Assembly (NCBI RefSeq): GCF_000013385.1
Contig: NC_007760.1
Span: 1,054,001 to 1,118,000 of the forward strand
Direction of reading: 5' to 3'
Source of the DNA: Anaeromyxobacter dehalogenans 2CP-C
GTDB taxonomy: Bacteria > Myxococcota > Myxococcia > Myxococcales > Anaeromyxobacteraceae
Length of the DNA: 64,000 bases
The position numbers were made by a program, and so were the translations under genes. Shown here in pieces: positions 1,146 through 16,691 of the stretch (position 1 is the first letter of the stretch; each line of letters opens with the position of its first letter). Under the pieces are notes generated by a model. The model did no database searches and had not been told where the DNA came from. It worked only from the letters and a program-made list of their open reading frames with translations.

Positions 1146-1975
1146 GGAGGGGAGCCTCGCGTTCGGGGACGGGCCTGCCTCTTCGCAAGCGCCTTGCCAC
1201 CACGGCGGGAGGGCTCGCCGGCACGCAAGGCCGCGTGCTCACTGCGTTCGACCCCCCCGGCGGCGGGATGCCGCGCCCCGCCCGGTCGGATGAGGCGCGC
1301 CGGATCCTCGGATGCGCGCGTCCGATCCGGCGCCGCGCGGCGATCAAGTCCGCTCGGGGTGAAGGCGGTCCGCTGGCGAGGCGGGAGATTGCAAACCGGA
1401 TCAATTTCCGCGCGGTGCTCCGACCGGCGCGCACCCGGGCGCCGCGCGGCCGGCTCGAGCCGGGGTTCCCCCTGCCCCCGCGCGAGGAGGTCGCGCGCGC
1501 CGCTGGGCGCCAGGCGCCTCGGCGCGTTCACCCAGGGTGATTATGGCCCGAGGCTCCGTTGGGTCGTCAATGAGAGCTTTCTCATCGTGATCTCGTGGAG
1601 CGCCGGCCGCGCGGTCGCCGGCGGCCGCCACGTCCGGGCACGCGTCGCTCGCGCCCGGATCGTGCCAGGCCAGATCAAGGGGCACGACCCAACTCCGCGA
1701 GACCCGGGCGGTTTGGGCGGCGGAGTCGCATGCACGAGCGGTGAAGCAGGACGGCCTCCGGCGCGCGCCCGGCGCCGCTCCCATGGTGCAATCCCGAGCA
1801 CCATCCGCACTACCGCGGTTCAATGATTGATCAATGTGTCCCCGCTGTTCGGGATGGTCGCCCGCCGGGCCCTGGATAGCTTCGACCGAGACCACGCACG
1901 GACGGAGCGAGGGTGGCCGACGGCGGCGTGGCACGGACGGTGTGCGGCACCGAGGGTGCACGGGAGGACACGGTG
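1146..1975. other. 830 bp non-coding region between nrfHA and the multicopper oxidase gene
   Basis: Longest gap in the window and the upstream region of two divergent transcription units. I found no ORF with believable codon use. It holds locally AT-richer patches near 1386-1410 and 1540-1600, an imperfect palindrome with 6-base arms ATGAGA/TCTCAT and a 4-base spacer at 1570-1585, and the perfect palindrome ATTGATCAAT at 1826-1835. These could be operators, but none matches a named box well enough to assign. GGGAGGA at 1962-1968 is the ribosome site of the oxidase gene. Confidence 0.5.
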
Positions 1976-4900
1976 ATGACGACGAGGATGCTTCGGCACT
2001 GGGCACGGCTGGCGCTGGCCCTGGCGTCGATCGGCTGGGCGGCGGACGCACCGCGGGCGGCGTCCAGCGCGGGCGGCTCGCAGCAGACGCGGGTCTCGCA
2101 GGCGCAGCGCGACGCGGCGGCCGCCGGCTCCGGCCTGGTGGTCCAGAGCCTGGACGCCGCCATGACGACGGCGACCATGGCCGCGCCGGGCTCGGCGCCG
2201 CACTACTTCGGCCCCTACGCGAACTACGCCAACAGCCCGCTCCGGCTGGCGGATGCGACCGTGAGCATCACCGGGGCCGGCACGGGGGCGACCGCCACCG
2301 CCACCGTGGACCTCGTCACCGGCGCCGTCACCGGCGTCGCGGTCACCGCCCCCGGGACCGGCTACCTCGCCGACGGGAGCACCCTCGTCACCGTCACCAG
2401 CGCCGCCACCACCGCGACCGGCGCGGCCGCGACGGCGGTGGTGGATCCGGTCACCGGCGCGGTGACCGCCATCACGCTGGACGCGCCGGGCACGGGCTAC
2501 GTCACCCCGGGCATCCGCAAGTTCGTGAACGGGCTGCCCGGGCTCGGCGCCGCCGCCGCCAACGACCTCGGCCAGTACATCCCCGTGGCCGTCCCCGACA
2601 CCACCACGTACCCGGGCTCCGACTACTACGAGATCGCGGTCGTGCAGTACCGCGAGCAGCTCCACTCGGACCTGCCGCCCACGCTGCTGCGCGGCTACGT
2701 GCAGCTCGCCACGGCGGTGGTCCCCGGCGCCGGCGTCCCGCTGGTGGGGACCGACGGCCTGCCCATCGCGCTCCCCGGCGGGCAGCAGGCGGTCGGGGTG
2801 GACCGCCCGCACTCCCTGGGGCCGGCCATCCTCGCCACGAAGGACCGCCCGGTCCGGATCCTGTTCCGCAACCTGCTCCCGACCGGTCAGGGCGGCGAGC
2901 TGTTCCTGCCGGTGGACACGACGGTGATGGGCGCGGGCATGGGCCCGGACATGGGCGGCATGGCCGAGCCGGATCCGCGCAGCCCGATGTGCGGCATGAC
3001 GCCGAAGCCGATGGGCTGCTTCGCGGAGAACCGGGCCACGCTGCACCTCCACGGCGGCATCACGCCGTGGATCAGCGACGGCACCCCGCACCAGTGGATC
3101 ACGCCGGCGGGCGACTCGACCACGTATCCGAAGGGCGTCAGCGTGACGAACGTGCCCGACATGCCGGATCCCGGCCCGGGCGCGATGACGTTCTTCTACA
3201 CGAACCAGCAGAGCGCGCGGCTCATGTTCTACCACGACCACGCGTGGGGCATCACCCGGCTCAACGTCTACGCCGGCGAGGCCGCGGCCTACGTGATCTC
3301 CGACCCGGCCGAGGACGCGCTCGTCGCGCAGGGGATCATCCCCGGGCTGGCCGAGACGCTGCCGCTCATCGTGCAGGACAAGACGTTCGTGCCGCCCGAG
3401 CCGCAGCTCGCCGCGCAGGATCCGACCTGGGACCTCGCGCGCTGGGGCGGGCTGGGCAGCCTCTGGGTCCCGCACGTCTACATGCCGGCGCAGAACCCCG
3501 GTGACGCGAGCGGCGTGAACCAGTTCGGGCGCTGGGCCTACGGGCCGTGGTTCTGGCCGCCCACGTCCAACATCGACTACCCGCCCATCGCGAACCCGTA
3601 CTACGACCCGGCCTGCGACCCGGGCGCCGGCTGGTGCGAGCCGCCGCTGGTCCCGGGCACGCCGTGGCTGTCCATGGGCATGGAGGCGTTCAACGACACG
3701 CCCACGGTGAACGGCACCGTCTATCCCACGGTGACGCTCGAGCCGAGGACCTACCGCCTCCGCATCCTGAACGCGGCCAACGACCGCTTCTTCAACCTGC
3801 AGCTCTACGTCGCCGACGCGAGCGGCACCGAGGTGGCGCTGAACGCCGCCGAGGTGCAGGCGGCGCTGGCGGATCCCGCCGGCGTGTTCCCCACGCCCGA
3901 CACGGCGCTCAGCCCGCCCGGCCCGAGCTTCGTGCAGATCGGCACCGAGGGCGGCTTCCTGCCGTCGCCGGTGGTGGTGCCGCCGCAGCCCATCACCTGG
4001 GTGACCGACCCCACCGTGTTCAACGCGGGCAACGTGGACAAGCACGCCCTGCTGCTCGGCCCCGCCGAGCGCGCCGACGTGATCGTGGACCTGTCGGCGT
4101 TCGCGGGGCAGACGCTCATCCTCTACAACGACGCGCCCGCCGCGTTCCCCGCGCGCGACCCGCGCTACGACTACTACACCGGCAACCCGGACCTGACCTC
4201 GACCGGCGGCGCGCCCTCCACGCCGCCCGGCTTCGGCCCGAACACCCGCACCGTCATGCAGATCAAGGTGAGCGGGAGCACCCCGGCCGCGCCGTTCGAC
4301 CTCGGGGCGCTGCGGGCGGCGTTCGCGCACAAGGCCGACGGGACCGGCGTGTTCGAGTCCTCCCAGCACCCCATCGTCGTCGGCCAGGAGCCGTACAACG
4401 CCGCGCTCGGCACCGCCTTCCAGGCGAACGGCCCGCGCGCCGGCCTGGTGCAGATCTACGACGAGCTGTTCGCGTTCGACACCGTCTCCGGCGTGCCGCT
4501 CACCATGCCGCTGCAGCGCAAGGCCATCCAGGACGAGATGGGCGAGGCGTTCGAGAAGGAGTACGGGCGCATGAGCGGCAACCTCGGCCTGGAGGCGCCC
4601 AACGCGCAGGCGGGCCAGCAGCAGAACCTGATCCTGTACCCCTACGTCAACCCGGCCAGCGAGGTCCTCGCCGGCATCGTGCTGCCGCCCGGCGTGGACG
4701 TGACCCCGATCACCACGACCGACGACGGCACCCAGCTCTGGAAGATCACGCACAACGGCGTGGACACGCACCCCATCCACTTCCACCTGTTCGACATCCA
4801 GCTCGTCAACCGCGTCGGCTGGGACGGCATCGTCCGCCGGCCGGACGCGAACGAGCTCGGCTGGAAGGACACGGTGCGGATCAGCCCGCTCGAGGACACC

Positions 4901-6055
4901 ATCGTGGCGATGCGGCCCGTCGTCCCGAAGCTCCCGTTCGGCCTGCCGCACAGCGTCCGCCCGCTCAACCCGATGATGCCGCTCGGCTCGCCGGACGGCT
5001 TCAACAGCGTGGACGCGAACGGCAACCCCGTCAGCCCGGCGCTCACCAACGTCATGACCGACTTCGGCTGGGAGTACGTCTGGCACTGCCACATCCTCAG
5101 CCACGAGGAGATGGACATGATGCGGCCCATGGCCGTCTCGGTCGCGACGACCCTGCCGTACCCGCCCACCGGCGTCACGGTGGCGCCCGGCGCGGGCGGC
5201 GTGGACCTCGCCTGGATCGACGCCACGCCGGTGAGCTACGCCGGCACGGCGACCTGGGGTGACCCGTCGAACGAGATCGGCTTCCGCGTGGAGCGGGCGC
5301 CCATCGGGAACAACGGGAAGGCGGGCGCGTACGTCTCGCTCGGCACCACGCTCGCGAACCAGGCGCGGTTCCGCGACGCCACCGCCGACCCGGCGCTGAC
5401 CTACAGCTACCGGATCGTGGCGGTGAGCTCGGCCGGCGAGTCCGTCTCGGCGCCGGTGGGCGGGCCGCTGCCGGCCGCGCCGCAGGCCCCCACGAACGCG
5501 GTCGCCACCCTGGCGGCCGGTCCGTCGGTCGCGCTCACCTGGCGCGACAACGCGACCAGCGAGGCGTACTTCGTCCTGGAGCGCTCGGTGGACGGCGGGG
5601 CGTTCGCGTACCTGTCGGCGCCGCCGGCGCGCAGCAACACCGGCACGGTGACGTTCACCGATCCCGCCGTGTCGAGCGGGCACACCTACCAGTACCGGGT
5701 GAGCGCGGTGAACGCGGGCGGCTCGTCGGCCCCGGCGGTCTCGAACGCCGTGACCGTCGTGAGCCCGCCGCTGCCGCCCTCCGGCCTGGCCGGCACCGCG
5801 GTGCGCTCCGGGAAGAAGGCGAACGTCACGCTCACCTGGGTGGACGGCTCGACCGACGAGACCGGGTTCGAGCTCCAGCGCGCGACCAACGCGTCGTTCA
5901 CGGTGGGGCTCAACACCAGCACCCTGGCGGCCAACACCGTCACGGTGACGCAGACGGGCCTGTACCGCGGCGTCACGTACTCCTACCGGATCCGCGCCGT
6001 GAACGGCGGCGGGGCGTCCGCCTGGTCGAACGTGGCGACCGTGGTCACGCCGTAG
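1976..6055 (+). CDS. Large secreted multicopper oxidase with three C-terminal fibronectin type III domains (OmpB-like)
   Basis: A 1359-residue exported oxidase. ATG 1976 was chosen over the upstream ATG at 1913 because GGGAGGA lies just before it and a signal peptide (about residues 1-30) then starts the protein. All four copper motifs are visible: HLH at 357-359, HDH at 420-422, HPIHFH from 932 to 937, and HCH at 1037-1039 with H1043 and a likely axial Met1048. So type 1, 2 and 3 copper sites look intact. Residues of about 95-185 hold two copies of a VTGAVT...APGTGY repeat, and about 1065-1359 hold three fibronectin III domains. The family normally has 450-650 residues. Geobacter OmpB, a multicopper protein needed for Fe(III)/Mn(IV) oxide reduction, has a similar plan (recalled, not aligned). 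Substrate unknown; metal oxidation or a surface electron-transfer role is plausible. Confidence 0.88.
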   Translation: MTTRMLRHWARLALALASIGWAADAPRAASSAGGSQQTRVSQAQRDAAAAGSGLVVQSLDAAMTTATMAAPGSAPHYFGPYANYANSPLRLADATVSITGAGTGATATATVDLVTGAVTGVAVTAPGTGYLADGSTLVTVTSAATTATGAAATAVVDPVTGAVTAITLDAPGTGYVTPGIRKFVNGLPGLGAAAANDLGQYIPVAVPDTTTYPGSDYYEIAVVQYREQLHSDLPPTLLRGYVQLATAVVPGAGVPLVGTDGLPIALPGGQQAVGVDRPHSLGPAILATKDRPVRILFRNLLPTGQGGELFLPVDTTVMGAGMGPDMGGMAEPDPRSPMCGMTPKPMGCFAENRATLHLHGGITPWISDGTPHQWITPAGDSTTYPKGVSVTNVPDMPDPGPGAMTFFYTNQQSARLMFYHDHAWGITRLNVYAGEAAAYVISDPAEDALVAQGIIPGLAETLPLIVQDKTFVPPEPQLAAQDPTWDLARWGGLGSLWVPHVYMPAQNPGDASGVNQFGRWAYGPWFWPPTSNIDYPPIANPYYDPACDPGAGWCEPPLVPGTPWLSMGMEAFNDTPTVNGTVYPTVTLEPRTYRLRILNAANDRFFNLQLYVADASGTEVALNAAEVQAALADPAGVFPTPDTALSPPGPSFVQIGTEGGFLPSPVVVPPQPITWVTDPTVFNAGNVDKHALLLGPAERADVIVDLSAFAGQTLILYNDAPAAFPARDPRYDYYTGNPDLTSTGGAPSTPPGFGPNTRTVMQIKVSGSTPAAPFDLGALRAAFAHKADGTGVFESSQHPIVVGQEPYNAALGTAFQANGPRAGLVQIYDELFAFDTVSGVPLTMPLQRKAIQDEMGEAFEKEYGRMSGNLGLEAPNAQAGQQQNLILYPYVNPASEVLAGIVLPPGVDVTPITTTDDGTQLWKITHNGVDTHPIHFHLFDIQLVNRVGWDGIVRRPDANELGWKDTVRISPLEDTIVAMRPVVPKLPFGLPHSVRPLNPMMPLGSPDGFNSVDANGNPVSPALTNVMTDFGWEYVWHCHILSHEEMDMMRPMAVSVATTLPYPPTGVTVAPGAGGVDLAWIDATPVSYAGTATWGDPSNEIGFRVERAPIGNNGKAGAYVSLGTTLANQARFRDATADPALTYSYRIVAVSSAGESVSAPVGGPLPAAPQAPTNAVATLAAGPSVALTWRDNATSEAYFVLERSVDGGAFAYLSAPPARSNTGTVTFTDPAVSSGHTYQYRVSAVNAGGSSAPAVSNAVTVVSPPLPPSGLAGTAVRSGKKANVTLTWVDGSTDETGFELQRATNASFTVGLNTSTLAANTVTVTQTGLYRGVTYSYRIRAVNGGGASAWSNVATVVTP

Positions 6056-6827: not shown

Positions 6828-7283
6828 ATGATCGGCATCACGCGCTCGATCGCGATCCGGGCTCCGGCGGAGCGGGTGTTCGCGCACCTCTCGGAGCCCG
6901 GGAACCTGCTGGAGATCTGGCCCAGCCTGGTGGCGGTCCGGAACGCCGAGGTCGGCGACGACGGCCGGCACGCGTTCGACTGGACCTATCGCATGGCCGG
7001 CCTGCCGTTCCGCGGCCACTGCGACACCACCGCGGTCGTGCCCGGCCGCAGCCGCGAGGACCACAACAGCGGCGGCATCCCCAGCACGTTCCGGTGGAGG
7101 TTCGAGCCCGCCGCCGAGGGCACGAACGTGGAGCTCGCCATCGAGTACGAGGTGCCGGGGATCGTGCAGATCGTCGCCGGCGCGGCGCTGCGCGCCATGA
7201 ACGAGCGCGAGGCGGACGCGCTGCTCGCGAACCTGAAGGCGAGGATGGAGTCCGGGCAGGTGCCGGTGCGGCGGGGCGGGTAG
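6828..7283 (+). CDS. SRPBCC-fold (polyketide cyclase/START-like) protein
   Basis: 151-residue cytoplasmic protein. It starts with the family signature: a strand ending in a PAERVFAHLSEPGNLLEIWP-type helix, then alternating strands, and a long C-terminal helix (about 118-145). These proteins have a helix-grip cavity for a hydrophobic ligand; the ligand here cannot be told. ATG 6828 follows CGGAGG with 6 bp spacing. It converges on the minus-strand partner-switch gene ending at 7293, only 9 bp away. Another SRPBCC gene lies at 52278-52757, but the two are not obviously close paralogues. Confidence 0.8.
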   Translation: MIGITRSIAIRAPAERVFAHLSEPGNLLEIWPSLVAVRNAEVGDDGRHAFDWTYRMAGLPFRGHCDTTAVVPGRSREDHNSGGIPSTFRWRFEPAAEGTNVELAIEYEVPGIVQIVAGAALRAMNEREADALLANLKARMESGQVPVRRGG

Positions 7284-7292
7284 GCCGGGACC

Positions 7293-7694
7293 TCAGTCGA
7301 TGGCGACGGTGTTCACCGCGTAGCAGGAGAGGGCGAGCAGGCTGGTCTTCTGCCACTTGCGCGCGGGGTTCGACAGGAACCGCAGCCCGTACCGCTGGGC
7401 CTCGGGCAGCGCCTGGATCCGCTGGATCCAGTGGATGAACGCCTTGAAGCCGGAGGAGTTGCAGAACTCGAGCTCGCGCAGGTCCACCCGCACGGCGCGC
7501 TCGCCCTTCTTCACCACCTCGTCGTGCACGGCGTCGAGGAACGGGTTCAGCACGGTCGCGGGGTTGACGGTGCTGATGGTGCCGCGGAACAGCACCCGGG
7601 TCCCGAGCGGCTCGGTGGCCATGCTGGCGGAGTACTTCTCCTCGGACACCTGGAACGGCGTGGCGCGGCCGCCCGGCTGGAACGCTGCGGTCAT
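7293..7694 (-). CDS. STAS-like antagonist / SiaC-type regulatory phosphoprotein
   Basis: 133 residues. The central strand-helix segment VDLRELEFCNSSGFKAFIHW has the pattern of STAS and SiaC-family proteins, in which a Ser or Thr in the NSSG turn is phosphorylated by a partner kinase and dephosphorylated by a PP2C phosphatase. Start at ATG 7694, which overlaps the stop of the kinase-like gene (ATGA) and has GGAGG upstream. It is the last gene of the seven-gene cluster running from 13187. In RsbV/SpoIIAA systems the partner controls a sigma factor; in Pseudomonas SiaABCD it controls a diguanylate cyclase. Which target applies here cannot be read from the window. Family placement is by motif and context. 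Confidence 0.72.
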   Translation of the reverse strand: MTAAFQPGGRATPFQVSEEKYSASMATEPLGTRVLFRGTISTVNPATVLNPFLDAVHDEVVKKGERAVRVDLRELEFCNSSGFKAFIHWIQRIQALPEAQRYGLRFLSNPARKWQKTSLLALSCYAVNTVAID

Positions 7695-8212
7695 CGGGAA
7701 CCTCCGGAGGTCTGGAGCGGGGTGGGGCGGAGCCGCCCCGACGCGTGGACGGTCATGCGCCCGCCGGCGCGGCTCACGGACAGCTCGAGCTGCGCCTCGA
7801 AGCGGACGCGGGCGAGGCCGAGCCCGCCGCGCTGCGCGGTGGGGGTATCGTGCATCGCCTGCAGGTAGTGGCGGAGGGCGTCGGGCTCGCCGTTCATGCG
7901 CGCGACCCGCTCCTCGAGCGCGTGGTACTCGGCCTCCGTGCAGCGGTTGGTCACGGCCACGGCCACGCGGTCGGCCTCGGGCTCGACCTCCAGCGTGAGC
8001 TCGACGTCGTCGTCGTGCGAGTGGGGCACGGCGTTCTGCATCAGCTCGTGCACCGCCAGGGCGAGCTGCGCCTCGCGGTTGTCGGTGGTCCCGGCGCACG
8101 CGCAGAACGACTCGACGAACCGGCGGATCTCGTCGATGAAGACCCAGGGCGGCTTCATTCGCAGCGTGAGATAGACGGGCGTCCCTCCGCGTCGGGCATC
8201 AGCGGTCGTCAT
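7691..8212 (-). CDS. GHKL-fold ATPase, partner-switching kinase of the SiaB/RsbW type
   Basis: 173 residues. The N box is visible as AVHELMQNAVPHS, and a Gly-rich GGLGLAR segment lies near residue 145, but the usual DXGXG ATP-lid motif between them is not seen. In its place is a helical insert ending in LRHYLQAMHD. This arrangement (N box, long helix, then GG-GLGL) is what I recall for SiaB/DUF6272 proteins, which phosphorylate their SiaC partner. It overlaps the phosphatase gene before it by 14 bp and the antagonist gene after it by 4 bp, so the three products are probably made in fixed ratio. Likely a Ser/Thr kinase acting on the 7293-7694 product. Confidence 0.75.
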   Translation of the reverse strand: MTTADARRGGTPVYLTLRMKPPWVFIDEIRRFVESFCACAGTTDNREAQLALAVHELMQNAVPHSHDDDVELTLEVEPEADRVAVAVTNRCTEAEYHALEERVARMNGEPDALRHYLQAMHDTPTAQRGGLGLARVRFEAQLELSVSRAGGRMTVHASGRLRPTPLQTSGGSR

Positions 8213-10091
8213 TCTTGCGCCTCAGCACCACCGTTGTCATGTCGTCTTCCTGCGAGGCGGCGAACGCCTCGACCGCGGAGAACACGGTCCCGAGCGCCTG
8301 CGGCGCGGACGCGCCGTGCAGGTCGCCGAGCACCTGGGCCAGCCGGTCCTCGCCGAACAGCTCCCCGCCGGCGGCGGGCGCCTCCAGCATGCCGTCGGTC
8401 ACCAGGCAGAGCAGCTCGCCGGGGCCGACCTGGAACTCGTACTCGGTCACCCCGGGCGGCACGCCGGCGGTGAGGCCCACCCACGGGCCGGGCGAGTCCA
8501 CCACCTCGACGGCCCCGGGCCCGCGGACCACGAAGATGGGCTGGTGCGCGCCGGCGGCCACGAACCGCCCGTCGCCGAGGTGGCGGGCCGCCATCAGCGT
8601 GAGGTAGTCGTCGCGGCCCATGCGCCGGCGCACGTTCTCGTGCACCACCCGGTTCACGGCGGCGATCACGTGGCGCGGCGAGCAGCGCGGGTCCTCGGCG
8701 ATGGCGCCGTACGCGGCCGCCTGCGCCATCATCATCACCAGGCCGGAGTTGATGCCGTGCCCGGAGACGTCGCCGACCAGCACCCAGAAGCCGTCCTCGA
8801 ACGCGAGGATGTCGTACAGGTCGCCGCCCACGTCGTCGGCGGGCTTCATCCGCGCGGCCACCTCGTAGCCGGGCACGGCCGGGCTGACCGGGAGGATGGC
8901 GGTCTGGATCTGGTGCGCGATCTGGACCTCGCGGCGCAGCGCCTCGGTCCGCTGCAGCTCGTCCCGGGAGCGCGCCACCTCCTCCACCATCACGTTGAAG
9001 GAGCGGACCAGGTCGCCCAGCTCGTCGCGGTACTCGGCGTGGACGCGGGCGGTGAGGTCGCCGCGCGAGACCCGCGCCATCGACGCGGAGACGTCCACCA
9101 GCGGGCGCGAGGCCTGCCGCACGGCCGCGACCCCGGCGCCGGCGGCCGCGAGCAGCACGCCCGCGTAGAGGAGCCCGAGCACCACGCGCAGCCAGGTGAG
9201 CTTCCCGTACGCCACCCGCTCCGGCACCAGCATGAGCGTCGCCCAGCGCGGCGCCGCCGTGGCGGCCTGCGTCCGCACGGCCAGCGCCGGGTCGCCGCCC
9301 GCCGGCTCGAGCCGCTCCAGCGTGCCGGGCGTGCCGGCCGGCACCGCCAGCACCGGCGCGAGCGCGGCCGCGTCGATCCCCGGCGTCGAGAACGTCAGCG
9401 CGCCGGCCGCGTCCGCCACCACCGGCCGGTAGTCGCCGTCGCGCCCGCTCACCTCGCCGAGCAGGCGCGCCAGCGCGTCGCGCGTCACCGCCCCGACGAC
9501 GTAGCCGCACAGGTCGCCGGCGAAGTCCCTCACCGGCGCGGTGAGCACGAGCGCGTTCCCTTCCGGCGCGCCGCGCAGCAGCCGCGCGAGCGGCACCACG
9601 TCGGCCGTCACCGCGGCGCCCTGGCCGGCGTGCGCCAGCCCGGGCAGGTCCACCACGATGCCGCGCATCTCCCCGAGCCCGATCCCGCGGGGCGCCGCGC
9701 CCGGCGCCGCGCGCACGGCGGCGCGGATCTCGCCGTCCGGCGCGAGCAGCGCGGCCGCGCCGATGGCGCCGCCCTGGTCCTGGATGGTGCGGCGCAGGTA
9801 GTCCTCGGCGAACTTCGGGTCGCCCGTGTCGAGGCTCATCTGCATCGCCTCGGCCTCGGCCCAGTTGCGCACGGTGAGCGCGCGCTCGCCCTGGAACCGC
9901 ACCACCGCCTCGTGCACCTCCTTGGCGCGCGCGGCGAGGTGCGAGTGGACCGCGTCCACCACCACCGAGCGCGCCACGCGCTCGAACGCCATCGCCGCGG
10001 CGGCGAGCGCCAGCGCCAGCAGCGCCACCGTCGCCACCAGCAGGCGGAGGCGCAGGGACGTGCGCGTGCGCTGGGCCACGAACGCGAACAC
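8199..10091 (-). CDS. Membrane-bound PP2C/SpoIIE-type phosphatase with periplasmic sensor and HAMP domain (SiaA/RsbU-like)
   Basis: 630 residues. Membrane helix 1 is at about 14-36, followed by a periplasmic CHASE4-like region of about 260 residues, helix 2 at about 303-325, a HAMP domain at about 326-385 and a C-terminal PP2C domain. Metal-binding acidic motifs of the phosphatase are intact: DVGGDLYD, GDVSGHG, DGMLEA and the terminal DDMTTVVL. This is the SiaA/RsbU plan: an outside signal switches dephosphorylation of the antagonist. GTG start at 10091, one base after the stop of the cytochrome gene. The product should act on the STAS-like protein encoded two genes downstream. Signal unknown; its position in a cytochrome operon suggests redox or electron-acceptor state, which is inference. 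Confidence 0.88.
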   Translation of the reverse strand: MFAFVAQRTRTSLRLRLLVATVALLALALAAAAMAFERVARSVVVDAVHSHLAARAKEVHEAVVRFQGERALTVRNWAEAEAMQMSLDTGDPKFAEDYLRRTIQDQGGAIGAAALLAPDGEIRAAVRAAPGAAPRGIGLGEMRGIVVDLPGLAHAGQGAAVTADVVPLARLLRGAPEGNALVLTAPVRDFAGDLCGYVVGAVTRDALARLLGEVSGRDGDYRPVVADAAGALTFSTPGIDAAALAPVLAVPAGTPGTLERLEPAGGDPALAVRTQAATAAPRWATLMLVPERVAYGKLTWLRVVLGLLYAGVLLAAAGAGVAAVRQASRPLVDVSASMARVSRGDLTARVHAEYRDELGDLVRSFNVMVEEVARSRDELQRTEALRREVQIAHQIQTAILPVSPAVPGYEVAARMKPADDVGGDLYDILAFEDGFWVLVGDVSGHGINSGLVMMMAQAAAYGAIAEDPRCSPRHVIAAVNRVVHENVRRRMGRDDYLTLMAARHLGDGRFVAAGAHQPIFVVRGPGAVEVVDSPGPWVGLTAGVPPGVTEYEFQVGPGELLCLVTDGMLEAPAAGGELFGEDRLAQVLGDLHGASAPQALGTVFSAVEAFAASQEDDMTTVVLRRKNDDR

Positions 10092-10092
10092 G

Positions 10093-10428
10093 CTAGCCCC
10101 CGTAGCCCTGCTGCACGGCGTGGAACTTCAGGAAGTCGTAGATGAGCTGGGCCTGCTCCTCGTTGATGGCGGAGTTGGGCCGGCGCAGCATCCGCTTCAT
10201 GTAGCGCTTCCACTCGGTGGGGCTGAACCGCGCGTTCACCGAGCGCGCCAGCGGGTGGCACTTGGCGCACTTCACCGAGAACACCTCGTACTTGCGCTGC
10301 TGGTCCTGCGGGTACTGCCTGACGTCGATGCGATCGGGGCCGCCGTCGCGCGGGTCCGGCGGGGCCTGCGGGGGCTCCGCGGCGGCGATCAGCGCGGCGA
10401 GCGCGGCGACGAGCGGGAGCGCGGGCAT
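10093..10428 (-). CDS. Small monoheme c-type cytochrome
   Basis: 111 residues with a signal peptide (about 1-18) and one heme motif CAKCH at 54-58. Downstream helices include YMKRMLRRP, in which a Met could be the sixth ligand. It therefore looks like a periplasmic soluble electron carrier or a heme subunit. ATG 10428 shares one base with the stop of the porin-like gene (TGATG), and its own stop is one base from the GTG of the phosphatase, so it is translationally tied to both. A role in carrying electrons to or from the porin-associated heme is inference from context. Confidence 0.85.
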   Translation of the reverse strand: MPALPLVAALAALIAAAEPPQAPPDPRDGGPDRIDVRQYPQDQQRKYEVFSVKCAKCHPLARSVNARFSPTEWKRYMKRMLRRPNSAINEEQAQLIYDFLKFHAVQQGYGG

Positions 10429-11582
10429 CAGAACGCACCTCCCATCCCGACGTGGTACGAGTGGAAGTCCTCGAAGTCGGTGGTGTCCCAGTACTCGTAG
10501 GAGAGCTTCACGAACACGCCCTGCGCCGGCGTGACGACCAGGCCGCCGGTGTAGCGCTGGATGCGGCTGTCGATGGAGAGGTCGGCGGAGGCGCCCGGCA
10601 GCGGCGCGCCCTTGCGGCGCAGCTCGTCGAAGCGGTAGACGGCGGCCAGGTACCGGCCCAGCGGGTGCTCGAGCTCCCCGTACCAGCCCTCCTTCTCGAA
10701 CCAGTCGTCCACCAGGCCGTAGCGGTAGCCGCTCGCGGCGGGGTCCAGGTCGGTGCGGCGCGCGGCGTACTCGCCGCGCGCGGTGAACGGGCCCAGGCGG
10801 AAGGACGCGTCCACGCCCCACATCAGGTACTTCAGCTTCGCCTCCTTGTCGTACCGGCCGCCGGTGAACGAGCCGCCCAGCGTGGCGTCGCCGATGAACG
10901 CGTTCGCGTCGGCGGAGTAGGTGAGCGCGAGGCGCGCCCCGCCCGCCAGCTCGCGGTTGTTGTCGGAGTACGAGCTGGTGCGGAGCGCCATCCAGTCCAC
11001 GTCGTTCGCGCCCTTGAGGCCCGCCACGCCGTAGAGCCCGTACCAGACCTGCAGCCGCTCCCCCAGCCACGCCACGCCGTAGGCGAGCGCGCCGGTGTCG
11101 CTGTACGGCATCGGCACGATGCCCAGGTTCATGGCGGTGCGGGCGCCGTACGCCATGCGCCCCATGTCGTAGATGAGCGGGGCCGAGGCGGGCTTGTGGC
11201 CGGAGGGGTCGGCGCGCTGCGAGTACTCGCCGAACGGCACCAGGATCCGGCCGGCCTGCACGTTGAACCAGGTCTTCGGCGTGTACTCGAGGGCCACGTG
11301 CTCCATCTCGAACCCGTGGCAGCTCGCGCAGGCCTTGGCGGTGAACGAGAGGTCGTCGTGGATGTCCACGCCGACCTTGAGCGAGGCGTCCAGCGTGAGC
11401 CCCTGCGGCGCGCCCCGGCCCACGCTGCGGTCCGGGATGCCCCAGGAGTCCACGTAGGCCGAGCCGGAAACGATGACGCCGTCGCCGGCGCGGGCGGCCG
11501 CGGCGGCCGCGAGGAGGCCGGCCGCGAGCGCGAGGCGCGCGGCGGGGCGGTGGGCGCGAGGGCGGGCGTGGCGTTCAGTCAT
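10428..11582 (-). CDS. Outer-membrane porin-like beta-barrel with an embedded c-type heme motif
   Basis: 384 residues. A signal peptide (about 1-32) is followed by a sequence dominated by alternating amphipathic strands with Tyr/Trp girdles, ending in the aromatic C-terminus GMGGAF typical of outer-membrane barrels. A heme motif CASCH sits at 85-89, after one or two strands, in the segment KACASCHGFEMEHVALEY. Barrels of electron-conduit porins (MtrB, OmbB) do not normally contain heme motifs of their own, so this is unusual. The start ATG 11582 overlaps the stop of the lipoprotein gene by 8 bp. It could bring periplasmic cytochromes through the outer membrane, or be a porin whose CXXCH does not bind heme. 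Confidence 0.75.
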   Translation of the reverse strand: MTERHARPRAHRPAARLALAAGLLAAAAAARAGDGVIVSGSAYVDSWGIPDRSVGRGAPQGLTLDASLKVGVDIHDDLSFTAKACASCHGFEMEHVALEYTPKTWFNVQAGRILVPFGEYSQRADPSGHKPASAPLIYDMGRMAYGARTAMNLGIVPMPYSDTGALAYGVAWLGERLQVWYGLYGVAGLKGANDVDWMALRTSSYSDNNRELAGGARLALTYSADANAFIGDATLGGSFTGGRYDKEAKLKYLMWGVDASFRLGPFTARGEYAARRTDLDPAASGYRYGLVDDWFEKEGWYGELEHPLGRYLAAVYRFDELRRKGAPLPGASADLSIDSRIQRYTGGLVVTPAQGVFVKLSYEYWDTTDFEDFHSYHVGMGGAF

Positions 11583-12021
11583 TGGGCGCTCCGACGGCGA
11601 TCCACGCCTCGATGGCCTGGATCTCGGCCTCGTCGAGCAGGGTGTCGCCGGTGGGCATGGGGGTGGGCACGCCGCCGGCGTCGCCGGCGGTGCCGCGGAG
11701 CTTCAGGACGAGGTAGCTGCGCTCGGGCGCGCCCGGCTCGACCAGCATGAGCGCGGGGGCCTGGATCGACGGGACGTCCACGAGCTGGCCGTAGGCGAGC
11801 TCGCGGTCGAGGGAGGTGGGCGCGGTCGGCGGCGGGTTGCCGGAGTGGCAGGCGGTGGTGGCGCAGCGCGGGACGAGCACGTTCTCGGCGATCGACGAGA
11901 ACGTCCCGGGGACGCCGCCGCCGTCCGGCAGCGGCTCGCCGCCGCGCGGGTCGGCGCCGCAGGCGGCGAGCGCCGAGGCGAGCACGGCGCCGAGCGCGAG
12001 CGGGGGCGTGCGGCGGCTCAT
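11575..12021 (-). CDS. Lipoprotein with a CX4CH heme c-type motif
   Basis: 148 residues. The signal sequence ends in a lipobox with LAAC, giving lipidated Cys21. The mature part has CATTACH at 53-59, a CX4CH motif, followed by a long domain ending in EAEIQAIEAWIAVGAPN, which is the usual end of cytochrome c-like domains in planctomycete-type and myxobacterial lipoproteins. A GDTLLDEAEI helix and two Met residues (in the PTPMPTG loop) could provide the distal ligand. Its ATG overlaps the stop of the preceding gene (ATGA), and its stop overlaps the porin start. Probably a membrane-attached heme protein; heme attachment at the unusual spacing needs proof. Confidence 0.78.
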   Translation of the reverse strand: MSRRTPPLALGAVLASALAACGADPRGGEPLPDGGGVPGTFSSIAENVLVPRCATTACHSGNPPPTAPTSLDRELAYGQLVDVPSIQAPALMLVEPGAPERSYLVLKLRGTAGDAGGVPTPMPTGDTLLDEAEIQAIEAWIAVGAPND

Positions 12022-13187
12022 GGGCGGAGCGGGAACTGCGCGTCGTTGGGGTCGTCGGTGACGAGCGAGCGGCGCAGCTCCACCGTCCAGGTGCCGTCGG
12101 CCCAGCGCGCGGCGGCGGTCACGTCGTCGCGGTGGAGCCCGGGGGGCTGCAGCGCCACCGCCGGGATGCGGGTGCCGTCGGCCGGCACGGTGACCGTGTC
12201 GATCGGCACGGCCAGGGGCGCGCCACCGCTCACGAACAGCGCCGCCGGGTTCGAGGCGAGCCCGCCCTCGCCCATCCACTTCGGCGAGGCCGGCGTGAGC
12301 CCGTCGGAGTTGGTCTGCGTCATCGAGACGCTGCACGGGGGGCTGCGGCCGGTGAGGCAGGCCTGCGCGCAGGCCGGCGGGTCGGGGCAGTCGCCGTAGA
12401 TGCGGACCTCGTTCCAGAACTGGTCGTCGGCGAGGCCGAGCGGCCCGGTGCGCGCCGCGCGCCAGGTCCAGCCGTCCACCAGCTGGCCCGCGCCGTTGGT
12501 GTGCATGCTGAAGCGCTGCGACCGGATCGGATCGGTGAAGACGCCGAGGTTCTCCTTCACGTGGCAGCCGGCGGCGCAGCCCACCGCGTCGTGCGGCTTG
12601 AAGTTCGCGGCGTCGAACGAGAGGAACAGCTTGTCCTCGTCGAGCGTGGCGTCCTGCGCCCAGGCGCCGGCGGTCCAGACCCAGGGCCGCCAGGCGCGGC
12701 TCTCGGTCGGATCGCTCCAGCGGAACAGGAACCACACGTGCTCGTCGTCGTAGGCGACCCTCACCCGGATGCGGTCGATGCCGTAGTCGTAGCGCGGGAC
12801 GCGGGTGCACGGCTCGCCCGCCACGCACGCGCCGCGCGAGACGTAGTAGCCGGTGTACTCCTCGGTCCACTGCGCCTCGGTCATGCCCATGATGGCGCCG
12901 GGCGAGACGAGCGGGATCGTGCTCTCGGGGAGGCCGGCCCAGTCCGAGGCGTCGCCGTCCACGGTGGGCGGCGAGGCCACGCGGCGCGCGGCCACGGTGC
13001 TCGCGCCGGGCTTGCCGGAGAGGAACGCGATCTTCACCGCGCTGGAGGACTGCGGGATGCTGCCGCCCGAGTTCACCACGCCCACGCTGAACCAGGCGTC
13101 CGCCGGCGCGTGCGTGAGCTCCGGCGCCTCCAGGCAGCCTCCGAGCAGCACGAGCGCGGCGAGTCCCCCTGCGCGACCGAGGCGCAT
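12018..13187 (-). CDS. Heme-binding lipoprotein of the ethylbenzene dehydrogenase gamma-like (EB_dh/CBM9-like) family
   Basis: 389 residues, first gene of the cluster. Lipobox LLGGC gives lipidated Cys18. The body starts with PTVDGDASDWAGLPEST, the usual entrance of a DOMON/CBM9-like beta-sandwich, and contains strand patterns IRVRVAYDDEHVWFLFRW and LFLSFDAANF. These are typical of the heme-b-binding EB_dh domain found in DMSO-reductase-type gamma subunits. A CX3CH motif (CAAGCH, 204-209) is also present, so a covalent heme is possible. Start ATG 13187 has GGAGGGGG upstream. No molybdopterin catalytic subunit is in the window, so it is probably a stand-alone electron carrier. Function is not established. 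Confidence 0.75.
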   Translation of the reverse strand: MRLGRAGGLAALVLLGGCLEAPELTHAPADAWFSVGVVNSGGSIPQSSSAVKIAFLSGKPGASTVAARRVASPPTVDGDASDWAGLPESTIPLVSPGAIMGMTEAQWTEEYTGYYVSRGACVAGEPCTRVPRYDYGIDRIRVRVAYDDEHVWFLFRWSDPTESRAWRPWVWTAGAWAQDATLDEDKLFLSFDAANFKPHDAVGCAAGCHVKENLGVFTDPIRSQRFSMHTNGAGQLVDGWTWRAARTGPLGLADDQFWNEVRIYGDCPDPPACAQACLTGRSPPCSVSMTQTNSDGLTPASPKWMGEGGLASNPAALFVSGGAPLAVPIDTVTVPADGTRIPAVALQPPGLHRDDVTAAARWADGTWTVELRRSLVTDDPNDAQFPLRP

Positions 13188-13300: not shown

Positions 13301-13320
13301 GGTGGGTGATTTCACCCACC
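13301..13320. promoter_or_regulatory. Perfect inverted repeat, likely operator or activator site
   Basis: GGTGGGTGA and its exact complement flank a 2-base centre (9 bp arms). It lies 114 bp upstream of the first gene of the cluster and 20 bp upstream of the candidate -35 box. There is no T run after it, so a regulator-binding site is more likely than a terminator for the response-regulator gene, which ends 120 bp away at 13441. Confidence 0.45.
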
Positions 13321-13440: not shown

Positions 13441-14825
<1,385 letters not shown>

Positions 14826-14829
<4 letters not shown>

Positions 14830-16691
14830 GCGTCCACCTCCGACCCGGCCGCGGCCTCGACCAGCCGCCGCACCGGGAAGCGGATCGCGGCCACGGTCCC
14901 GCCGCCCTCGCGCCGGCGGAGCGCGAACCGGGCCCGGTGCTGCTCCACCGCCCGCGTGACCACCACCAGGCCGAGCCCGGTGCCGGTCGCCTTGGTGGTG
15001 ACGAACGGCCGGAGCACCTCGTCCAGCTGATCCGCCGGGATGCCGCAGCCGCGGTCCTGCACCTCCACCACGATGGTGCCCTCGCCGCCGGACGCCTCGA
15101 AGCGGCTCACCAGCGTGGGCGGCTCCGCCCCGCCGGCGTCGAACGCGTTGGCGAGCAGGTTGACCAGCGCGTCGGTGACCATGGGCGCGTCCACGTCGAG
15201 CACCGGCAGGTCCGGGGCCAGCTCGAGCCGCACCGCGCCCGCGGGCAGCCCGCGGGCCAGCGCCGCCTTCTGGGCGGCCTCCTTGAGCAGCCGGTTCACC
15301 GCCACCGGCGCGAGGTGCGGCTCGGCCGGCCGCGAGATCTCCAGCAGCTCGGAGATGAAGCGGTTCACCCGCTGGACCTCGTCGCCGATGAGCCCGGAGT
15401 ACTCGGCCACCTCGGCGTCGCCCTCGAAGCGCCGGCGCAGGTACTGGGCCGCGCCGTCGATCGCGTTCAGCGGGTTGCGCAGCTCGTGCGCGACCTGCGC
15501 CGACATCTGGCCCAGGCCCGAGAGCCGCTCGGCGTCGAGCAGCCGCCGCTCCAGCGTGCGCCGCTCGGTGATGTCGCGGATCACCATGACCGTGCCCAGG
15601 TAGCCGCCGCCCGCGCCGGCCACCGGCGCGTAGGTGGTCTCGAAGCGCCCCTCCCGCTCCTTGATGATCGAGTGGGCCGGGCCGGCGTCGTCGCCGCGGC
15701 GCAGGTACCCGAGCACGCGGTCGAGCATCCCGTGGCTGGCCTTCGGGTGGCAGTCCTTGATCGGGCGGCCGGCGCCGTCGGTCAGGTTCCGGAGCGCCCG
15801 CCCCGCCTTGTTCACGAGCGCCACGCGGTCCTCGGCGTCGATGAAGATGACCCCGTCCACCATCGAGTCCAGGATCGCCTGGAGCCGCTGCAGGTCGGCG
15901 GCCCGGGCCTCGCGCGCGGCGGTGGCCTCGTCCAGCGCCTCCGCCAGCTTCGCGGTCCGCTCCTGCACCCGCGACTCCAGCTCGGCGTGGGTGCGCTGCA
16001 CCTCCTCGGCCATGCGCCGGAGCGCCCCGGCCAGCGCCCCCGCCTCGCCGGGCGCGTCGGGCGGCCGGGCCGCGAGGTCGCCGCGCCCGAGCGCCTCGGC
16101 GAAGCGCGAGAGGTGCCGCAGCGGCGCCACCAGCGTGGTGCGGAGCACCAGCACCACCGCCAGCGACACGGCGGCGAGCGCCAGCCCCACCAGCGCCGCC
16201 ATCCGCACGGTGGACGCGGCCAGGCGCGGGCCGAGGCCGCTCACGTCGAGCGACACGTGCAGCGCCCCGTTCACCGCCTGCTCGCCGTGGCAGCCGCGGC
16301 ACGACGCGGCGTTCTCCACCGGGCGCGTCACCGTGAGCCGCGCGTCGGTCCAGCGCAGGGACGGGCCGAGCCCGAGCCGCTCCGGCCCCTCGCCGGCCCG
16401 CAGCCGCACGCGGCCCTGCGCGTCGGCGAGCGCCACGCCGGCCACGCCCCCGGCGCGGCCCACCGCGCCGAGGATCGCGGCCATGGTGTCCGGCCGGTGC
16501 TCGGTCATCGCCTCGGTGAGCGAGTGCTCCAGCGCCTCGGCGATCGCGCCGGCGCGCGCCTCGAGGAGCGCGCGCTCGGCCTGCGCCTCCTCGCGCCGCA
16601 GCGCGGCGCCCGCCACGACGGACACCGCGGCCGCCACCAGCAGCAGGAGCAGGGTGGTCCGGCCGGTGATCCCCAGGGTGAGGAGGCGCAT
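14826..16691 (-). CDS. Sensor histidine kinase with a periplasmic c-type heme motif, HAMP and PAS domains
   Basis: 621 residues. Membrane helices at about 9-30 and 163-184 enclose a periplasmic sensor domain with the motif CRGCH at 131-135, so it probably carries a covalent heme c. HAMP (about 185-240), a coiled coil and a PAS domain (about 268-380) follow. The PAS part contains KDCHPKASHG (Cys314-His315), a pattern I associate with PAS_10/DUF438-type sensors. The kinase core has the H box with His402 (AHELRNPLNA), and N, G1 and G2 boxes at the C-terminus. The protein is therefore fit to sense redox state, O2 or NO in the periplasm and phosphorylate the NtrC-type regulator encoded next. ATG 16691. 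Confidence 0.92.

Follow-up and report, generated by a model that had tools for sequence, protein, structure and literature searches.

The window analysed here is a stretch of 64,000 nucleotides of the soil bacterium Anaeromyxobacter dehalogenans 2CP-C, and genome-wide searches were run on its source replicon, a single contig of 5,013,479 bases. Re-reading of the open reading frames in the window found seven genes on the minus strand, from 13187 down to 7293, at the same coordinates as in an earlier note on this DNA:

g1, 12018..13187, minus strand: lipoprotein with lipobox LGGC, an EB_dh domain (PF09459, ethylbenzene dehydrogenase haem-subunit type) and a CX3CH motif (CAAGCH)
g2, 11575..12021, minus strand: small lipoprotein with lipobox LAAC and a CX4CH motif (CATTACH)
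g3, 10428..11582, minus strand: outer-membrane beta-barrel with 16 predicted strands (AlphaFold2, Foldseek) and CXXCH at residues 85-89
g4, 10093..10428, minus strand: small periplasmic monohaem cytochrome, motif CAKCHP
g5, 8199..10091, minus strand: transmembrane segment, dCache-like periplasmic domain, transmembrane segment, HAMP and SpoIIE-type PP2C phosphatase; GTG start
g6, 7691..8212, minus strand: GHKL ATPase/kinase of a distant Slr1658/SiaB type
g7, 7293..7694, minus strand: STAS-like protein of a distant Slr1659 type with an NSSG motif and S80 as candidate phosphosite

The seven-gene overlapping block described in the earlier note was confirmed, with all genes present and every junction overlapping or one base apart (-4 bases at g1/g2, -8 at g2/g3, -1 at g3/g4, +1 at g4/g5, -14 at g5/g6 and -4 at g6/g7). 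The block ends with g7; the gene that follows it, at 6828-7283, lies on the opposite strand and is convergent. Among 67 pairs of neighbouring genes of the same direction near the loci, 21% had a gap of one base or less, from which the chance of six such tight junctions consecutively is about 8e-5 per run, both figures depending on a crude gene caller. Conservation across relatives, given below, is a stronger argument than these gap statistics that the packing is not due to chance. The seven genes may form one transcript.

Just upstream of g1, a perfect 20-base palindrome, GGTGGGTGATTTCACCCACC, is located at 13301-13320. It is a possible operator; a regulon defined by it was considered and rejected, as the genome contains no other exact copy. 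Beyond the palindrome, at 13441-16691 on the minus strand, are an NtrC-type regulator and a histidine kinase with CXXCH in its sensor part, probably Adeh_0922 and Adeh_0923; Adeh_0923 was reported as a haem-motif PAS-like sensor (PMC3831638). On the other side of the block, the window encodes NrfH (164 bits, cut-off 134.2) at 2-1145 on the minus strand, together with the beginning of a nitrite reductase of NrfA-like type. A large protein resembling multicopper oxidases, with weak similarity to O-aminophenol oxidase PhsA, is encoded at 1973-6052 on the plus strand. In several relatives, 4-haem and 5-haem genes of NrfH/NrfA look were seen just downstream of g7.

Haem-motif proteins and switch proteins

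The gene families assigned by the earlier note (lipoproteins, barrel, monohaem cytochrome, PP2C phosphatase, GHKL ATPase and STAS-like protein) were borne out by domain matches, structural models and conserved residues. Its description of haem motifs held for g3 (CASCHG) and g4 (CAKCHP), the only two genes of the block with a standard CXXCH; the motifs of g1 and g2 proved to be non-standard, though both CX3CH and CX4CH recur in relatives. The g1 protein passed the Pfam cut-off for EB_dh (92.2 bits against 33.3). No Pfam cut-off was passed by g2, which gave at most a weak Cytochrom_C match, and no Pfam family was found above cut-off for g4. In alignments of 13 orthologues each, C53, C58 and H59 of g2 and C54, C57 and H58 of g4 were invariant. 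From these motifs, all four proteins g1-g4 may carry covalently bound haem.

The AlphaFold2 model of g3 is a 16-strand barrel (pLDDT 70.8, pTM 0.74) whose Foldseek matches were OmpT, OprO and OprP; a sequence search of g3 against solved structures gave nothing usable. In the model, CXXCH falls on the hairpin that joins strands 3 and 4, and strands at residues 36-48 and 61-75 come before it. Among full-length homologues, out to distant Myxococcota, C85 and H89 were conserved in 100% and C88 in 97%. With a conserved CXXCH inside the strand order, g3 may represent a further way of moving electrons through the outer membrane.

The g5 protein passed the cut-off for the SpoIIE-type PP2C family (PF07228, 120.6 bits against 25) and contains a HAMP domain (PF00672, 49.2 bits). 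The top Foldseek match of its model was the PP2C domain of SiaA (6k4e), and the periplasmic part of the model resembled double-Cache sensors, such as the ligand-bound structures of DctB and Tlp3. The gene is probably Adeh_0917, and the other locus tags of the block would follow by counting from it. One SpoIIE-like phosphatase was reported for the species (PMC2887360), and our search of the genome for SpoIIE-type PP2C gave a strong match and, next to it in rank, a weak one. The g6 protein matched PF13581 (39.1 bits, cut-off 27.4). The slr1658 superfamily was matched by 10 of 12 g6 orthologues and the slr1659 superfamily by 12 of 12 g7 orthologues, in all cases weakly and below the NCBIfam cut-off; g6 and g7 themselves reached 25.9 and 34.7 of 100 bits, respectively. 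Sequence searches of g6 and g7 against solved structures gave nothing usable. The metal-ligand residues of PP2C, the GHKL residues and those of the STAS phosphosite were conserved in alignments of 11 to 12 orthologues, E56, N60 and RGGLGLAR being invariant in g6 and N79-S80-S81-G82 in g7. The phosphosite of SpoIIAA is S58. By alignment with this residue and with T68 of SiaC, S80 is the expected phosphosite of g7. In SiaC, T68 is located within LNTSS (PMC7647112). No sigma factor, as expected for a switch of the RsbU/V/W type, was found in the block or directly beside it in the window, and neither a diguanylate cyclase nor a gene for an effector of g7 was found within the operon.

Distribution of the block in Myxococcota

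Conservation of the gene order in relatives had been set beforehand by the earlier note as a check on the block, and the order was found to be kept. Searched separately, g3 and g7 gave matches in the identical 14 of 24 genomes of the Anaeromyxobacteraceae. The order g2-g3-g4-g5-g6-g7 and its overlaps were preserved in every contiguous locus of the family holding the block, with the exception of one permuted locus (G010); in one further genome (G020) the block is divided among contigs. The g2/g3 overlap is 8 bases in each genome with both genes read, and g5/g6 and g6/g7 overlap in all family loci read. G010 has g4-g5-g6-g7, a decaheme gene, an interrupted g1, g2 and g3 on one strand, and a second set, g2-g3-g4-decaheme, on the other. 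That one g4 remains with g5-g7 there while g1-g3 sit elsewhere in the cluster gives a hint that g4 could be a link between conduit and switch. The g1 gene is a variable member of the block, as reading of the neighbourhoods did not detect it beside the block in six Anaeromyxobacter genomes, and it is fused to g2 in two others (G022 and G023).

A gene with ten CXXCH motifs adjoins the block in eight family genomes, and in one (G007) a decaheme cytochrome is fused to g2. Two of the adjoining decaheme genes were scanned against NCBIfam and belong to the OmcA/MtrC family (281.7 and 270.3 bits, cut-off 209.3). In 2CP-C itself, no decaheme gene was found beside the block, and there were at most weak matches elsewhere in the genome. 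In G003 the adjoining gene encodes 12 haem motifs, and its product is 58% identical to a protein encoded at 3.90 Mb in 2CP-C, which by position would be Adeh_3392, a Pcc cytochrome with a reported rise under Mn(IV) reduction (PMC4245776). At L038:543-2944, beside the block in one relative, a 12-haem cytochrome gene is accompanied by what may be a barrel gene, and the known Pcc type is the probable assignment. The conduit reading of g1-g4, put forward in the earlier note, is strengthened because relatives place an OmcA/MtrC decaheme gene beside the block, one fuses a decaheme to g2, and the CXXCH of the barrel is conserved.

In other Myxococcota, g3-type barrels were found with g1, g2 or g4 partners, mostly without g5-g7. 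Most such loci have a gene for a eukaryotic-type Ser/Thr kinase as neighbour. It is located between g3 and g4 in two of these genomes (G150 and G146), follows g3 directly in G038, flanks the block on either side in G041 and precedes it in G039; in six more (G109, G147, G070, G151, G154 and G108) it lies downstream in convergent orientation. The coordinates L089:10546-13062 and L062:512-2536 are those of kinase genes that separate the barrel gene from the monohaem cytochrome gene. Of 11 loci, 9 had a kinase neighbour where about 1.3 would be expected, for a neighbourhood size chosen after the loci had been seen, and protein kinases are common in these non-family genomes. The excess is above chance, although the loci represent about three related groups. 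A second type of module was also observed, with GHKL and STAS-like genes, a gene for a roughly 460-residue protein whose end resembles a methyltransferase, and then a different membrane PP2C (L134:6234-10162, and also L133, L135, L132, L123 and L130); it may reveal an output of related switches.

To follow the sensor itself, a profile of the g5 periplasmic domain was built from eight of the matched proteins, that of G102 among them, and run over 195 Myxococcota genomes. The domain was found in 15, namely the 14 conduit-bearing genomes of the family and G102, which belongs to another family, and all 15 carry g3. A sixteenth match (G060, 4.2e-4) was marginal, and nothing else rose above noise. 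The 15 genomes are related and do not represent 15 independent events; the informative one is G102, whose earlier match to full-length g5 is an observation independent of the profile. In G102, the contig that carries g2-g3-g4 and a contig starting g5-g7-g6 have a 138-base repeat in common, at which the former ends. An attempt to join the two was rejected as ambiguous, since the repeat is present at four contig ends (C6, C12, C66 and C75), with many partial copies in the genome, and one alternative join puts a kinase beside g5. Only gene order favours an adjacency of g4 and g5 in G102. In the g3 tree, a single gene tree with midpoint rooting, G102 branches below G150, G111 and the family, a position compatible with a switch that was present early and was afterwards replaced or lost.

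Conduit use as a possible input to the switch

A putative conduit with its own sensor phosphatase, whose sensor domain is limited to genomes with that conduit, offers direct access to the question of how bacteria sense the use of an extracellular electron acceptor. The reading that we put forward, and to which we give an even chance, is that the block is one functional unit, in which an electron conduit (g1-g4) is co-expressed with a sensor of conduit use or of the periplasmic state (g5-g7) that reports inward via STAS phosphorylation. The gene content, the conserved order, the conserved catalytic and haem-motif residues and the limitation of the sensor domain to barrel-bearing genomes are evident from the sequences. 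Electrons would cross the outer membrane through the barrel g3 with its own haem, aided by the haem-motif lipoproteins g1 and g2 and, in relatives, by a surface decaheme cytochrome of the OmcA/MtrC type, and g4 would serve the periplasmic side. The dCache-like domain of g5 may respond to conduit use through an associated ligand or redox state, possibly via g4, and set the activity of the cytoplasmic PP2C domain. Following the logic of SiaABC, g6 would phosphorylate and g5 dephosphorylate g7, probably at Ser80, and g7 would bind an effector encoded elsewhere and so adjust expression or behaviour. Information is more likely to flow inward, since the conduit would lie in the outer membrane and the catalytic parts in the cytoplasm. 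The earlier note had proposed a conduit either signalled to or gated by the switch. The signalling half is plausible, as the extracytoplasmic domain of g5 occurs only in conduit genomes, but direct gating is unlikely, with no visible route from a cytoplasmic STAS protein to an outer-membrane barrel. The block suggests, in short, that cells may monitor the wire they breathe through.

Several observations count against the conduit-sensor reading: 2CP-C has no decaheme gene beside the block, a one-haem g4 cannot span the barrel as MtrA does, neither g2 nor g4 reaches a Pfam cut-off, the switch is missing from most conduit-bearing relatives outside the family, and no effector is encoded in the operon. 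Shared expression could also be a regulatory convenience only. In that case the switch would sense a small molecule through its dCache-type domain and control a general response, for example attachment or a regulon, and no signal would pass from conduit to switch, both simply being needed under the same anoxic conditions. Domains of this type often bind small ligands in solved structures, including the DctB and Tlp3 structures matched by g5, SiaABC responds to carbon availability, and conduits do occur without the switch. However, the sensor domain is limited to conduit-bearing genomes and the linkage of conduit and switch survives rearrangement, and we consider mere co-regulation somewhat unlikely, if the most serious of the alternatives.

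The direction could also be reversed, with the switch controlling production or use of the conduit through, for example, a transcription factor or envelope-assembly proteins. The Ser/Thr kinases near the same conduit block in other Myxococcota, two of them between g3 and g4, would suit such control, as would the NtrC-type regulator and perfect palindrome just upstream of g1. Given that the operon encodes no effector, that g5-g7 are downstream of the genes to be controlled and that there is no direct route from cytoplasm to barrel, this appears improbable. It is unlikely, to a slightly lesser degree, that g1-g4 are an outer-membrane redox enzyme or a porin for haem or metal uptake instead of a conduit: EB_dh domains are found also in haem subunits of dehydrogenases, g3 resembles substrate porins, and no multihaem protein adjoins the block in 2CP-C, but relatives have OmcA/MtrC decaheme neighbours and the decaheme-g2 fusion. 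Extending the conduit-sensor reading further, Myxococcota might wire outer-membrane conduits to dedicated cytoplasmic Ser/Thr phosphorylation modules, with a eukaryotic-type kinase alternating with a PP2C-GHKL-STAS switch in this role, and extracellular electron transfer would then itself be sensed by the cell. The barrel would be a self-wired porin whose haem is anchored at a hairpin, unlike the designs of MtrAB and Cyc2. This generalisation is speculative and we hold it with rather low confidence.

Comparison with known systems

One of the closest parallels to the switch is SiaABCD of Pseudomonas aeruginosa (PMC7647112), which likewise has a membrane PP2C phosphatase, a kinase and a phosphoprotein in one operon; g5 has its top structural match in the SiaA PP2C domain, and the phosphosite context is NTSS in SiaC and NSSG in g7. 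In contrast to that system, the g1-g7 operon is without a diguanylate cyclase and its switch is joined to haem and porin genes. Membership in SiaABCD was rejected, with 78.9 of 700 bits for SiaA, 16.2 of 85 for SiaB and 12.4 of 24.5 for SiaC, and with the cyclase missing. The best family matches of g6 and g7 were Slr1658 and Slr1659 of Synechocystis, where no conduit genes are known. Cells that have lost Slr1658 recover poorly from iron limitation and contain more Pgr5, which is linked to redox regulation (PMC7555055).

On the conduit side, MtrCAB and Pcc (PMC4245776) likewise combine an outer-membrane barrel with haem proteins, and an OmcA/MtrC decaheme gene adjoins the block in relatives, though not in 2CP-C itself. 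They differ in that the block has no multihaem periplasmic partner, g4 having one CXXCH, and in that 16 strands are predicted for the barrel as against 26. A single Pcc cluster has been reported for A. dehalogenans 2CP-C, and it is that of Adeh_3392 and not the g1-g7 block (PMC4245776). Cyc2 (PMC8406198) resembles g3 in having a single CXXCH and a 16-strand OprO/OprP-type barrel in one protein. Assignment of g3 to Cyc2 was rejected, as the AXPXFAR[Q/K][T/Y] motif is absent before residue 85 and CXXCH is preceded by two strands instead of belonging to an N-terminal domain.

In Mycobacterium smegmatis, SigF partner switching with RsfSR is reported to track the state of respiratory electron transport (PMC10950880); it differs from the block in its two-component input, its sigma-factor output and the lack of an outer-membrane conduit. 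Because Slr1658 has a redox and iron phenotype and mycobacterial SigF follows the respiratory chain, there is precedent in principle for a partner switch coupled to electron flow. No paper on the g1-g7 operon or on a union of conduit and switch was found in the literature searched, which was mainly open-access; relative to that literature, the components are of known kinds and their union is what is new.
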